Of a stretch of DNA of 64,000 nt, positions 6,496 to 10,355 are shown in pieces. The notes below the pieces were generated by a model. The model saw only the letters and a program-made list of their open reading frames with translations. It searched no databases and was not told the origin of the DNA. Made by a program: the position numbers and the translations under genes. The stretch lies in NCBI RefSeq assembly GCF_004138165.1, contig NZ_RYFF01000033.1, positions 1 to 64,000 of the forward strand, written 5' to 3'. Within the stretch, counting starts at the first letter, position 1, and the number at the start of each line of letters is the position of its first letter. This stretch comes from Candidatus Chloroploca sp. Khr17. GTDB lineage: Bacteria; Chloroflexota; Chloroflexia; Chloroflexales; Chloroflexaceae.

Positions 6496-6566
6496 TGCGG
6501 ATCGCCGCCCATCCCGTGAACCGGGATCGTTCGGGCATCAACCATCCCGGGAACCGGCATCGCCCC

Positions 6567-6692
6567 GTCACCAGGGGAGGGGCGCAGCAGCCATCAGGCA
6601 TGCCTGTGGGCAAGGGACGGGCCAGGCGCTGCGGCGCCCCGACGCCGCGATGTGCCGTCTACGCGGATGCGAGGATCCTCGCACCCGTAGGG
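6567..6692. repeat. GC-rich hairpin repeat, copy E (diverged)
   Basis: Fifth copy. The right arm is altered (GCTGCGGCGCCCC), and the copy continues into the CTACGCGGATGC ... GATCCTCGCACCCGTAGG flank it shares with copy C, which contains a self-complementary GCGAGGATCCTCGC. Confidence 0.8.
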
Positions 6693-6760: not shown

Positions 6761-7225
6761 TCAAGAGTAGTTGTTTGGGTTATCAACCTGGAGGCCCTCG
6801 ACTAATGCAGCCGTAATCAGGCGCTGATCAGCGGCGAGGAAGATGAGAGCATCTCGTTGCGAGCCGACCAGTTGTCCATTCACTTCAAGGGCGGAGGCAA
6901 GGTGCAATGCATCGTAGGTGCGTAGCGGATGCCGTTCTAACAAGCTTCGGGTGCGTTTGAGCAGCATGTTTGTGATTGGAACGAGCCGGTAGGTTCGGCG
7001 GCAGCGGGCCAGAAAGTCATCCCGTAGAATTCGATAGTCATCAGGTTGCAGGGTGCCTTCGCGCACCCGCCGATTGAACGCACTGACAACCTCGACGAGG
7101 CTTAGCCGCGCTGTCTCAATACGATGACCCGCACGAGGTGCGGTCAACGCACGAAACCACGCCGATCCTCGCTCAGGTACGTGACGTTTTACCAGGACAC
7201 TGCTGTCCGCGTAGAATACCGGCAT
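6761..7225 (-). CDS. PIN-domain toxin (VapC-like)
   Basis: A 154-residue PIN-domain protein, the expected size for a VapC-type endoribonuclease toxin. The metal-binding acidic residues are in the usual places: FYADSSVLVK (D6), SLVEVVSAF (about E45) and TYDALHLASAL (about D104), with a further acidic pair near LAADQRLI. It directly follows a small gene at 7225-7539 with which it shares one base (TGATG stop/start), the standard antitoxin-toxin arrangement with translational coupling. The likely RNA target cannot be inferred. A second, related pair is at 22134-22912. Confidence 0.85.
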   Translation of the reverse strand: MPVFYADSSVLVKRHVPERGSAWFRALTAPRAGHRIETARLSLVEVVSAFNRRVREGTLQPDDYRILRDDFLARCRRTYRLVPITNMLLKRTRSLLERHPLRTYDALHLASALEVNGQLVGSQRDALIFLAADQRLITAALVEGLQVDNPNNYS

Positions 7226-7539
7226 CAGAAGGTCTCCTCGCGATCCTCAATCACGAGTTGAGAGAGCGGCGTCCCAGCGGGGATACGCATCCACAAAGCG
7301 TCTACGGCTTCTTCTGAAAGCGGCTCAAGGTCGGCGGGGATATCTTCTGGTATATGCTGAAGCCCTGCGGCAAGAAGGAGCGCATCGATCACTTCGTCAT
7401 CATCAACGACGGCACCTCCATCTGCGGGAGCTTGCTCTAGGATGGTTAAGAGCGCACGCTGCGAACCAGAGACAGCAAGCGGCTCGAGCGGCTCAATCGT
7501 GCCGTCGGCATGAATGATGACATCAATGGTGCGGTGCAT
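7225..7539 (-). CDS. Antitoxin partner of the PIN toxin
   Basis: A 104-residue acidic protein starting MHRTIDVIIHADGTIEPLEP. The N-terminal strand plus 'G-I-EPLEPL' pattern resembles DNA-binding antitoxins with a beta-strand start that are paired with PIN toxins in Chloroflexota and cyanobacteria. The C-terminal half (EPLSEEAVDALWMRIPAGTPLSQLVIEDREE) is suited to wrapping the toxin. The stop overlaps the toxin start by one base, and GGGAGGAG lies upstream of the ATG. It is likely autoregulated with the toxin, but no operator is obvious. Antitoxin role is inferred mainly from position. Confidence 0.7.
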   Translation of the reverse strand: MHRTIDVIIHADGTIEPLEPLAVSGSQRALLTILEQAPADGGAVVDDDEVIDALLLAAGLQHIPEDIPADLEPLSEEAVDALWMRIPAGTPLSQLVIEDREETF

Positions 7540-7810: not shown

Positions 7811-7848
7811 CCCGGTCATCAACCAATCCCGTGAACGGGCATCGCCCG

Positions 7849-7954
7849 ATCACCAGGGGAGGGGCGCAGCAGCCATCAGGCATGCCTGTGGGCAAGGGGT
7901 GAGCTAGGGGCTGCTGCGCCCCTACGGGGCCGATGATGCCGCCCACGGGGGGAA
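7849..7954. repeat. GC-rich hairpin repeat, copy F
   Basis: Sixth copy of the element first seen at 3791, preceded by a CATCAACCAATCCCGTGAACGGGC unit. The left part of the hairpin's right arm is altered (AGCTAGGGGCTGCTGCGCCCC). Confidence 0.8.
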
Positions 7955-8027
7955 CGCGGATCGCCGGCCCATCCCGGGGGCGGGGAGCATCCGGTCATCA
8001 ACCAATCCCGTGAACGGGCATCGCCCG

Positions 8028-8133
8028 ATCACCAGGGTAGGGGCGCAGCAGCCACCAGGCAGGCCTGTGGGCAAGGGGCAGGCCAGGCGCTGCTGCGCCC
8101 CTACGGGGCCATGATGCCGCCCACGGGGGGGAA
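8028..8133. repeat. GC-rich hairpin repeat, copy G
   Basis: Seventh copy, intact arms, same orientation as the other six. Copies F and G with their flanks form a ~180-base tandem duplication upstream of the ArsR-type gene. Confidence 0.8.
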
Positions 8134-8285
8134 CGCGGATCGCCGACCCATCCCGGGGGCGGGGAGAAACGCTATCTGGGGCAAGGTCTCCGCCAGGAGC
8201 TTGCCCAGCGCTTTGCCGATCAAGTCTAGTAGCAACGCATTCGGTTGCCGCACCACTACCAAAGGTGAAGCTAACAATACTGAGC

Positions 8286-8308
8286 ATATGCAAAAAAAGG
8301 CATATACT
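8286..8308 (+). promoter_or_regulatory. Operator and -10 element of the ArsR-type gene
   Basis: A 20-base inverted repeat ATATGC-N8-GCATAT (8286-8305) overlaps a -10-like TATACT (8303-8308). The ATG at 8315 begins 7 bases after the -10, so the message would be essentially leaderless. The same 20-base layout recurs at 9014-9033. Binding here by the gene's own product would block its promoter. Confidence 0.6.
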
Positions 8309-8314
8309 ATTCCT

Positions 8315-8710
8315 ATGAACAACTCCACCGCCGAGCGCCACGCGCAAATCTTCAAAGCATTGATGCATCCCGTCCGGCTGCAGATCCTCGATCTGCTACG
8401 CAACGACGAGCAGTGTGTCTGTCACCTCGAGGCCCAGTTGGGCCAGCGGCAGGCCTACGTCTCGCAGCAGCTTGCCGTGCTGCGCAAAGCGGGCCTGATT
8501 AGCGACCGACGCGATGGCTTGAACAGCTACTACCGCATCACGCAGCCTGAGGTGCTGACCATGCTCGACACGGCACGAGCCATCGTTGGTGGTGACGAGG
8601 CACCCGAAACAAGCCTCGCCGTTGACTGCCCCTGCCCACGTTGTAGCCCGGCGCTCGAGCAAGACACCTATCCGCTACGCTTATTGTCTATAGAGGAGAT
8701 CCCATGTTGA
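8315..8710 (+). CDS. ArsR/SmtB-family metal-responsive repressor
   Basis: A 131-residue winged-helix regulator. HAQIFKALMHPVRLQILDLL and QAYVSQQLAVLRKAGLI are the characteristic ArsR helices; CVCHLE in the DNA-recognition region gives the Cys-x-Cys pair used by ArsR-type sensors. An unusual cysteine-rich C-terminus (DCPCPRCSP and a terminal Cys) could add a second metal site. Start 8315 is preferred: the ATG at 8288 lies inside the operator. Its end overlaps the next gene by 7 bases. It likely represses this operon and is released by arsenite, another thiophilic metal or a thiol stress signal; the inducer is inference. Confidence 0.85.
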   Translation: MNNSTAERHAQIFKALMHPVRLQILDLLRNDEQCVCHLEAQLGQRQAYVSQQLAVLRKAGLISDRRDGLNSYYRITQPEVLTMLDTARAIVGGDEAPETSLAVDCPCPRCSPALEQDTYPLRLLSIEEIPC

Positions 8711-8940
8711 ACGTCAAAGTGCTTGGCTCTGGCTGCACCAACTGCAAACGGCTCGAGCAGCGTGTCCAAAAAGTGCTCGCTGACTGCGGTTTGGACGGTG
8801 AAGTCGAGAAGGTGACCGACTACGGCGAGATGATGCGCTGGAACATTCTGAAAACCCCTGGTCTGGTGGTCAATGACGTGCTCGTCGCCTCGGGCCGCAT
8901 CCCTAACGAGGACGAGATCGCCGGTTGGCTGGCAAAGTGA
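8704..8940 (+). CDS. Small thioredoxin-fold redox protein (TM0996/MTH895 type)
   Basis: A 78-residue thioredoxin-fold protein. The active-site pair is seen in LGSGCTNCKRLEQRV (Cys11-Thr-Asn-Cys14), and the cis-proline region LKTPGLVVNDVLVASGR is conserved. This short family is commonly placed next to ArsR regulators and DUF318 permeases. A ribosome binding site GAGGAG precedes the ATG, which overlaps the regulator's stop (ATGTTGA). It probably works in the cytoplasm as a thiol-disulfide or metal-thiol exchange partner for the operon; the exact substrate is unknown. Confidence 0.85.
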   Translation: MLNVKVLGSGCTNCKRLEQRVQKVLADCGLDGEVEKVTDYGEMMRWNILKTPGLVVNDVLVASGRIPNEDEIAGWLAK

Positions 8941-9013
8941 CGAGTGCTTGCGGGGGCATAGCCCCCGTATCCCCGTCGGGTCAATCTGGTCAAAACCCTG
9001 TTTTGTGTCGGGT

Positions 9014-9033
9014 ATATTCAAAAATTTGCATAT
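9014..9033 (+). promoter_or_regulatory. Second ArsR-type operator, upstream of the permease
   Basis: An imperfect 20-base palindrome, ATATTCAAA-AA-TTTGCATAT, with the same ATAT(T/G)C-N8-GCATAT frame as 8286-8305. It ends just before the ribosome binding site (TTAGGAG) of the permease. It implies independent control of the permease within the same regulon. Confidence 0.65.
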
Positions 9034-9048
9034 TAGGAGTTATCCGCA

Positions 9049-10107
9049 ATGGCTCAATCATTGCCTTCACCCGCCAAAGCGCAGCGCAGCGCTGATACCC
9101 GCGCCTGGCTGATCGTCAGTGGCGTTACAGCGCTCTGGCTGATCGCCTATAACAGTGTCAAGCCCCTGGCTGACTGGCTGACCTTCGCGCTCTTGGGGCT
9201 TGCGCCTGACTCGCGGCTAGGCGATGCGGTCGCTTTTTTTCTGTACGATGTACCCAAGATCCTGCTGCTGCTGACCGGTATGATCTTCGCGATCAGCACG
9301 CTGCGCACCTTCTTTAGCGCAGAGCGCGTACGCCAGACCCTGGGCGGCAAGCGTGAGGGCGTCGGCAACGTGATCGGGGCCGGGCTTGGCGTACTGACGC
9401 CGTTCTGTTCGTGTTCGGCGGTGCCGCTCTTCATCGGCTTTGTCAAAGCTGGCGTGCCATTAGGCGTTACCTTTTCGTTCCTGATCGCCGCACCAATGGT
9501 TGATGGCGTCGCCCTGGCGCTGCTCCTGGGTCTCTTTGGCTGGCAACTGGCCGGACTCTATGTGGTCTCCGGGATGACGATCGCGATCATTGCCGGGATT
9601 ATCATCGGGCGGATGAACATGGAGCGCCATGTCGAGGATTTCGTCTGGGAGATCCGCGGCGGTGACGGGGCGGTCGCTGAGGAGCAGTACACCTGGACAC
9701 GTCGCTTCGACGAAGCCTGGGAGCAAGTGCGCGAGATTGTCGGCAAGGTCTGGCCCTATGTCGTGATTGGGATCGCGATAGGGGCAGGTATTCACGGGTT
9801 CGTGCCCGAAGATGCCTTGGCGGGAATCATGGGGAAAGAGGCGTGGTGGTCAGTCCCAGCGGGGGTCATCCTGGGCGTACCGCTCTACTCGAACGTGGCC
9901 GGGGTCATCCCAGTGGTTGATGCACTGATGGCCAAAGGGGCGGCGATGGGCACCATGCTCGCCTTTATGATGTCAGTGGTCGCCTTGAGTTTGCCCGAAA
10001 TAATCATCCTGCGGCGGGTGCTCAAGCCACGTCTGATCGCGACCTTCGTGGCGATCGTGGCAACCGGGATTATGCTGGTCGGCTATCTCTTTAACCTGGT
10101 GATCTGA
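9049..10107 (+). CDS. DUF318/ArsP-like permease
   Basis: A 352-residue integral membrane protein with about eight hydrophobic segments, of the DUF318 (UPF0718/ArsP) permease family. The conserved TPFCSCSAVPLFIGF motif (residues ~121-136) carries the cysteine pair that in ArsP relatives binds trivalent arsenicals, and FSFLIAAPMVDG and ILGVPLYSNVAGVIPV are further family signatures. It follows an ArsR-type regulator and a redox protein and has its own operator, so efflux of an organoarsenical or other soft-metal species is the best inference. The ribosome binding site is TTAGGAG. Substrate not provable from sequence. Confidence 0.85.
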   Translation: MAQSLPSPAKAQRSADTRAWLIVSGVTALWLIAYNSVKPLADWLTFALLGLAPDSRLGDAVAFFLYDVPKILLLLTGMIFAISTLRTFFSAERVRQTLGGKREGVGNVIGAGLGVLTPFCSCSAVPLFIGFVKAGVPLGVTFSFLIAAPMVDGVALALLLGLFGWQLAGLYVVSGMTIAIIAGIIIGRMNMERHVEDFVWEIRGGDGAVAEEQYTWTRRFDEAWEQVREIVGKVWPYVVIGIAIGAGIHGFVPEDALAGIMGKEAWWSVPAGVILGVPLYSNVAGVIPVVDALMAKGAAMGTMLAFMMSVVALSLPEIIILRRVLKPRLIATFVAIVATGIMLVGYLFNLVI

Positions 10108-10130
10108 ATGAAAACACGGGTTCAAGGGCG

Positions 10131-10328
10131 TGCATCGGCTTGCAGTTGCTGGGGATGATCAACCTGCCTATGCCGATCTGGTTCGGCACCTTGCCTTGCC
10201 GGATCACCTGGCGTGGCCTCCCCGGTGCCCTGGCCCTGGGCCTGGCCTTCGGGCTCGTCGCCTCGCAGTGCACCACCCCGGTGCTTGCGGCCATTCTGAC
10301 CACGGTCGTTGACACTTCACCCCAGGCC
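10131..10328 (+). pseudogene. Decayed ccdA-like (thiol-disulfide membrane protein) fragment
   Basis: In one frame the sequence reads IGLQLLGMINLPMP, then GALALGLAFGLVAS and CTTPVLAAILTTVV, which resemble a CcdA/DsbD membrane segment (LGL.FGL..SPC..PVLAA.L). There is no start codon context, no N-terminal half and no C-terminal half. CcdA supplies reducing power to thioredoxin-fold partners and often accompanies this regulator-redox-permease set. It is therefore probably the relic of a fourth operon member, cut off before the convergent Uma2 gene. Confidence 0.55.
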
Positions 10329-10355
10329 AGTCACAACGGGAAGAGAGCAATTTCC

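Follow-up and report, generated by a model that had tools for sequence, protein, structure and literature searches.

A second putative ArsR operator spaced behind T-tracts and terminators in arsenic-type operons of Candidatus Chloroploca and related Chloroflexota

An operon of Candidatus Chloroploca that encodes an ArsR-family repressor, a thioredoxin-like protein, and an ArsP-type permease contains two putative operators, one in the arsR promoter (O1) and one upstream of the permease gene (O2), and across relatives the putative operator O2 usually lies at a set distance from a T-tract or terminator. This repeated terminator-operator coupling in Chloroflexota is a more interesting result than a two-point regulon. 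It may represent a conserved repressor-gated terminator, with an operator approximately 8 nt behind the U-tract that would allow a constant low level of sensor and a ligand-gated effector from one promoter, a generalization for which the chances are regarded as even.

Operon genes and putative operators

The analyzed stretch (hereafter, the window) comprises 64,000 nucleotides of Candidatus Chloroploca sp. Khr17 (contig NZ_RYFF01000033.1). Its operon has the order arsR, thioredoxin (trx), and ArsP-type permease (arsP), with the following features:

8280..8308, plus strand: promoter P1 of arsR, with a weak -35 CTGAGC (8280-8285), a 17-nt spacer, and the -10 TATACT (8303-8308)
8286..8305, no strand assigned: putative operator O1, dyad ATATGC-N8-GCATAT in the -35/-10 spacer, overlapping the -10; position weight matrix (PWM) score 20.9
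8315..8710, plus strand: arsR, ArsR/SmtB-family repressor, 131 aa, with a CVC motif and a C-terminal CPCPRC
8704..8940, plus strand: trx, small thioredoxin-like protein of the MTH895/ArsE family
8949..8969, plus strand: strong GC hairpin UGCGGGGGC AUA GCCCCCGUA, immediately downstream of trx and 44 nt ahead of O2; no long T run
8989..9018, plus strand: possible weak promoter P2, with GTCAAA (8989-8994), 18 nt, and TATATT (9013-9018); score 7.8
8991..9005, plus strand: AT-rich hairpin CAAAAC-CCT-GTTTTG, whose TTTT (9001-9004) lies in the T-tract position -16 to -9
9014..9033, no strand assigned: putative operator O2, dyad ATATTC-N8-GCATAT; PWM score 27.5, the best in the window
9049..10107, plus strand: arsP, ArsP_1/DUF318-type permease, 352 aa

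The repressor belonged to the ArsR/SmtB family according to HTH_5 (PF01022; 50.1 bits, cutoff 22) and NF033788 (89.8, cutoff 55), and was 94% and 90% identical to its counterparts in the loci of Candidatus Chloroploca asiatica and Candidatus Chloroploca mongolica, respectively. Cys34 and Cys36 of the CVC motif were invariant and C105 and C107 nearly invariant among 23 aligned proteins, and a cysteine metal(loid) site is predicted at the sequence level. The thioredoxin matched Thioredoxin_3 (87.7 against 24.8) and TIGR00412 (89.9 against 62). The permease belonged to ArsP_1/DUF318 (PF03773, 254.8 against a gathering score of 32.3), with one match in its own genome and none among solved structures at E<=0.001. 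Two more specific identities were rejected for the permease, namely SaoE of the SAO (selenocysteine-assisted organometal) type (126.1 against an equivalog cutoff of 325) and the SO_0444 Cu/Zn efflux protein (92.1 against 300). One relative, a Chloroflexi MAG, offered a further clue to the ligand:

Locus L106, 714-2824: second regulated operon, upstream, with an arsR paralog, a thioredoxin-like frame, and an ACR3 gene

The likeliest ligand would be trivalent arsenic or an organoarsenical, because the second arsR of L106 carries the same CVC motif and precedes, with the thioredoxin-like frame between them, a gene for ACR3 arsenite efflux (TIGR00832, 467 bits against 282.8). Relative to this second arsR, putative operators of the L106 operon occupy positions -2260 (promoter-like), -1840 (preceded by T-runs), and -1760.

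A sequence-only reading of the window had described two 20-bp dyads of one format, the first covering the regulator's own -10 and the second lying just before the permease gene, and both were recovered in these places. O1 (ATATGCAAAAAAAGGCATAT, 8286-8305) has complementary bases in 6/6 of the outer pairs and 6/10 of all pairs, and O2 (ATATTCAAAAATTTGCATAT, 9014-9033) in 5/6 and 8/10, respectively. O1 overlaps the arsR -10 at 8303-8308, and 15 nt separate the end of O2 from the permease ATG at 9049. The search pattern that had been derived from the two dyads, ATATKC-N8-GMATAT, matched the window exactly at O1 and O2 alone. With up to two mismatches it yielded 11 matches against 4.8 expected, a number reached by 1 of 100 shuffles, and is thus mildly above chance in the window. 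The scan of the whole genome (6,376,501 bases) that the same reading had proposed found the exact pattern at 4 places and its reversed control at none. The two remaining exact matches were both within open reading frames, one (L003) inside a minus-strand ORF at 1084-1695 and the other (L004) inside a minus-strand frame that was open across the 90 codons inspected, and a wider regulon in this genome was therefore rejected. A looser pattern with RY ends occurred at 20 places against 5 for its reversed control, and weak extra targets are possible.

O1 and O2 are putative binding sites for the ArsR-family repressor that the operon itself encodes, and are not due to chance since both recur at matching places in many relatives. 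As far as tested, the two-point regulon is limited to one operon in this genome. Of the small regulon with two control points that had been predicted, one regulator acting at two points was retained, in a format common to many relatives, whereas O2 as a class did not behave as a second promoter-operator. The pattern led to no further target in this genome, and the consensus is better written as ATATTC-N8-GAATAT, allowing for T/G and A/C variation.

Conservation of O1 and O2 among relatives

Two sets of loci were compiled, which share several genomes and were kept apart and not summed. The first, from a family search, comprised 25 loci including the window. A dyad preceded arsR in all of these loci with upstream DNA (L023 and L029 are cut off), and was weaker in L028. 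A second dyad was located between trx and arsP in 16 of the 25 loci. The order arsR-trx-arsP occurred without a dyad before arsP in L018, L019, L022, L025, and L030; the dyad was located in the arsR-trx gap instead in L019, L025, and L030, and neither gap of L018 and L022 contained a second dyad. A different dyad, ATATTG-N8-CAATAT, was observed upstream of arsR at -294 in L058 and at -105 in L068, which correspond to L022 and L018, where an additional arsR-like stretch of opposite orientation is present; this dyad may be the operator of another regulator because of that nearby stretch.

The second set consisted of the window locus (L006) and the 80 best among 364 confirmed relatives, which are taken by name to be Chloroflexota except for one titled only "bacterium." A dyad was present upstream of arsR in 77 of these 81 loci, and two of the four others (L063 and L066) are cut off upstream. 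A first PWM was trained on 19 upstream sites of the family loci, and a second on 81 upstream sites found by the first, with O2 sites excluded from training. At a score of at least 14, the PWM detected 147 sites in the 81 loci (461,208 bases; training sites included) and 7 in five dinucleotide shuffles (2.3 Mb). Held-out downstream dyads with a score of at least 12 numbered 62 and occurred after arsR or trx in 57 of the 81 loci (the window and the best 80 of 364), 30 of them directly after arsR and 32 after trx. No O2 with a score of at least 12 was found within the searched stretch of the remaining 24 of 81 loci, which counts against the explanation preferred below. In these counts, sites below 12 were excluded, O1 and O2 were defined as the classes at -150 to +10 and +300 to +900 of the arsR start, and other sites belonged to neither. 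The 81 upstream sites gave the consensus ATATTC-N8-GAATAT, and O1 and O2 of the window itself carry ATGC/GCAT on three of their four arms.

T-tracts and hairpins upstream of O2

At least 5 T among the 8 positions from -16 to -9 were found at 49 of 62 O2 sites, compared with 2 of 76 promoter-proximal O1 sites (Fisher p=1e-22), and at 44 of 56 O2 sites after flanks that were at least 65% alike had been dropped. A T run of at least 5 within 40 nt upstream was present at 34/62 O2 and 5/81 upstream sites; its distance to the operator was 7-12 nt in 31 of the 34, with a mode of 8. Where O2 directly followed arsR, a T-tract was present in 24/30 cases and a strong stem in 10/30, at scattered distances.

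Stems with a score of at least 18 just upstream were found at 44% of O2 against 2% in shuffles, and at 10% of upstream sites against 3%; these hairpin scores are ad hoc. Where a gap contained an operator as well as a terminator, stem and operator were 15-17 nt apart in 25 of 27 cases, with the others at 12 and a spurious -95, a spacing that was spotted first and re-examined later by a looser search. This search, which had no requirement for T or position, placed a strong stem no more than 100 nt from 28/32 O2 behind trx, with the stem ending 10-17 nt away in 22 of these; at promoter-proximal O1 a strong stem was present at 23/75, with scattered offsets. Operator and terminator tended to occur together after trx (20/6/7/13, Fisher p=0.007), and the same held after arsR (7/20/2/52, p=0.005). 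Operator and T-run likewise co-occurred after arsR (19/8/11/43, p=2e-5), whereas the co-occurrence of operator and T-run behind trx was not significant (14/12/6/14, p=0.14). A terminator was also present in 7 of 20 post-trx gaps that had no operator, which again weighs against the preferred explanation.

The arsP start lies 383 nt beyond O2 in L011, 115 nt in L015, and 162 nt in L023, distances that were taken straight from the sequence, and O2 is still beside the hairpin in these loci, which suggests that the position of O2 follows the terminator and not the start codon. The general list of operator-to-next-gene distances (-1 to 383 nt) rests on gene starts projected from partial alignments, and its entries of -1 and 275-293 are unreliable. 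In L083, L084, and L106, a dyad was found behind a hairpin and a T-rich stretch upstream of arsR, with the stem ending 13, 15, and 12 nt away, respectively, and a similar upstream dyad in L112 has its stem end 18 nt away. A phylum scan of 301 genomes with the exact pattern found T5 before the dyad at 17 places in 16 genomes, compared with A5 before the dyad at 8 places in 8 genomes and a reversed T5 control in 5 genomes, a modest phylum-wide excess.

The genus of the window is not the best example of the terminator-operator arrangement. A T-tract, CTGTTTTG, with 5 T of 8 occupies -16 to -9 before O2, and the region 8938-9013 folds with z=-2.29. The strong stem is located 44 nt from the operator rather than at 10-17 nt, and only the weak AT hairpin adjoins O2. 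Among the O2 sites behind trx, the best stem was 44 nt away at three, which were read as the three Chloroploca loci.

Promoter signal at O1 and O2

P1 was the best promoter-like pair at its location (score 7.8), and its geometry is kept in several relatives with a -35 like TTGACA or TTGCAA. At upstream sites, the -10 either shares bases with the 3' end of the operator or abuts it on the upstream side. With a hand-written E. coli-like promoter matrix, whose scores are ad hoc, the upstream sites reached a median of 11.7 against 6.9 for shuffled flanks (n=80, p=1e-28), whereas the O2 class had a median of 7.1 against 6.7 (n=62, p=0.20). A second promoter at O2 was therefore rejected as a general rule, there being no signal above shuffled flanks over the 62 sites, and O2 as a class appears to lie inside the transcription unit with no promoter of its own, as would be expected of a roadblock operator. 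The absence of a promoter at O2 as a class is thus supported by the absence of signal. The O2 of the window scored 7.8, which equals the score of its O1, and 7% of the 125-nt pieces of the window scored at least 8; a weak promoter P2 may be present there. An A at -3 was conserved at both O2 (0.74) and O1 (0.80), and at O2 it could derive from a degenerate -10.

Possible mechanism and alternative explanations

The putative operators, their conservation, and their coupling to T-tract and hairpin are apparent in the sequences themselves, and a mechanism may be proposed on this basis. O1 in the arsR promoter would provide negative autoregulation, and O2 would act as an auxiliary downstream operator within the transcription unit. 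Taken together, the relatives appear to place O2 immediately after an intrinsic terminator or a T-tract. The T-tract ends about 8 nt short of the operator, and in loci where O2 follows trx, the hairpin ends about 15 nt short of it. A polymerase that is stalled at a DNA-bound protein has its active site approximately 10-15 bp short of the obstacle. Given this stall distance and a U-tract at -16 to -9, a repressor bound to O2 would hold the polymerase in the U-tract. The repressor would then serve as a roadblock that makes termination efficient, with the hairpin releasing the RNA from the polymerase held in the U-tract. Leakage from P1 would then not reach the pump gene, whereas arsR would still be transcribed, often together with trx; the ligand would free the repressor, upon which P1 would fire and the polymerase would read through into arsP. 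That a repressor at O2 holds the polymerase in the U-tract, and that basal transcription gives sensor but not pump until the ligand arrives, is considered probable with some reserve, with binding, ligand, and roadblock all presumed.

Alternatively, arsP (or trx-arsP) could have an internal promoter P2 of its own, with O2 as its operator, and the terminator could merely end the arsR(-trx) transcript shortly upstream. It is common for a terminator to be followed by a promoter-operator, and O2 stands before an effector gene in either of its places (trx or arsP). The conserved A at -3 and the TATATT of the window, which shares bases with the left arm of O2 and belongs to a pair scoring as high as the O1 promoter (7.8), are consistent with such a promoter. 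On the other hand, the 62 O2 sites scored at background with a matrix that easily detects the promoters of upstream sites, the frequency of T at +22 decreased from 0.80 at O1 to 0.35 at O2, and those of T at -7 and -5 decreased from 0.49 and 0.56 to 0.13 and 0.21. A promoter also needs no fixed spacing to a hairpin or T-tract, and this explanation is considered unlikely, albeit worth serious attention. A roadblock at O2 without any mechanical link to its surroundings is distinctly less probable. In that case O2 would simply block elongation or titrate the repressor, and the T-tract and hairpin would be a usual terminator or stabilizing element between cistrons, as could be expected from loci that have O2 without a good hairpin or a terminator without O2, and from the internal terminator-like hairpin that the accessible text on the Bacillus CDB3 ars1 operon describes (PMC4562236). 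The tight spacing of T-tract or stem to operator, which is kept even where the next gene is 115-383 nt away, argues against this explanation.

The least probable explanation, and a very doubtful one, is that O2 loops with O1 and strengthens the repression of P1, as lac O2/O3 do. The operator pairs are 402-887 bp apart within one operon, and looping can strengthen roadblocks according to the accessible part of one study (PMC10310618). Nevertheless, the O1-O2 distances of 60 pairs showed no helical phasing at periods of 10.4-11.0 (Rayleigh p 0.33-0.73), and looping leaves the coupling to the terminator unexplained. Small ArsR dimers are not known to tetramerise on DNA. If correct, the preferred reading, in which a repressor at O2 holds the polymerase at the terminator, would link roadblocking and intrinsic termination, two fields that are usually treated apart, and would explain how an autorepressor is made while the costly pump is not. 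It would also define a compact part, consisting of hairpin, U-tract, 8 nt, and operator, with a clear prediction of spacing.

Comparison with known systems

Among the closest solved relatives of the window ArsR are BigR (3pqj) and PDB 6o8k ("Transcriptional regulator, ArsR family"), the latter of which is presumably SqrR. The recognition helix RQAxVSQQLAxLR is common to the window ArsR and 6o8k. The published SqrR/YgaV site, as given in the accessible text, is ATTC-N8-GAAT (PMC9774250), and this operator of SqrR, BigR, and YgaV is matched by the consensus obtained here. The sensor described here differs from SqrR and BigR in having CVC and a C-terminal CPCxxC, and its operon encodes an ArsP-type permease. 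An identity as BigR equivalog was rejected for the window ArsR (57.1 bits against a cutoff of 155). An operator consensus is thereby supplied for the CVC/CPCxxC sensor family, of which no characterized member from Chloroflexota was found among the matches listed.

In 2003, Stocker is said to have equipped arsenic bioreporters with an additional ArsR-binding site placed downstream of the ars promoter. Engineered downstream ArsR sites that lower the background are termed roadblocks in the accessible text of two papers (PMC10310618, PMC5116461). They resemble O2 as sites of an ArsR-family repressor that lie downstream and cut background expression, but they are synthetic, and the accessible parts of the same papers do not mention coupling to a terminator (PMC10310618, PMC5116461). 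Unlike these sites, O2 is natural, occurs in many Chloroflexota, and has a fixed spacing from the T-tract. For the suppression of leakage by downstream repressor sites that was engineered in bioreporters, a comparable natural arrangement thus recurs in many Chloroflexota.

Natural operators between a regulator gene and effector genes have a parallel in the trpRBA operon of Chlamydia and its regulator YtgR, which belongs to another repressor family. When YtgR of Chlamydia trachomatis occupies the operator that separates trpR from trpBA, it promotes the termination of transcripts that read through, according to the accessible text (PMC6504234). It differs in that it also represses an internal promoter; no conserved terminator-operator spacing is described in the accessible text, and the word "terminator" is absent from the main text (PMC6504234). 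Repressors bound downstream, including LacI at lac O3 as well as CodY, CcpA, PurR, and GalR, block the elongating polymerase (PMC10310618, PMC3711431), but an intrinsic terminator at a fixed distance is not mentioned for them in the accessible parts of these sources. The ars1 operon of Bacillus sp. CDB3 is similar in containing, inside an ars operon, a terminator-like hairpin that lowers the expression of distal genes, and differs in that no operator behind the hairpin is described in the accessible text (PMC4562236). A looser parallel is provided by H-NS filaments, which aid termination according to the accessible text (PMC4337669). No report of a terminator-operator module was found in the open PMC literature searched, among the matches listed and as far as their text is accessible, and the matches listed for Chloroflexus ArsR operators included nothing on such an arrangement.

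Neighboring stretches of the window

Near-identical GC-rich stretches (GCATCGCCCGATCACCAGGG...CAGCAGCC...GCATGCCTGTGGGCAAGGGG...CGCCCCTACGGGG) were observed repeatedly within spacers at 7830-8190, upstream of arsR, and similar ones near 6540-6640; by eye, they look like a dispersed intergenic repeat family. The minus strand at 6764-7539 encodes a PIN-domain protein (PF01850) next to a protein of 104 aa that has no Pfam hit, and the two genes are arranged like a toxin-antitoxin pair. After arsP, short open frames without a Pfam hit occur at 10130-10340 (translation LALGLAFGLVASQCTTPVLAAILT), and by eye this translation resembles a vestige of a CcdA-type membrane protein.
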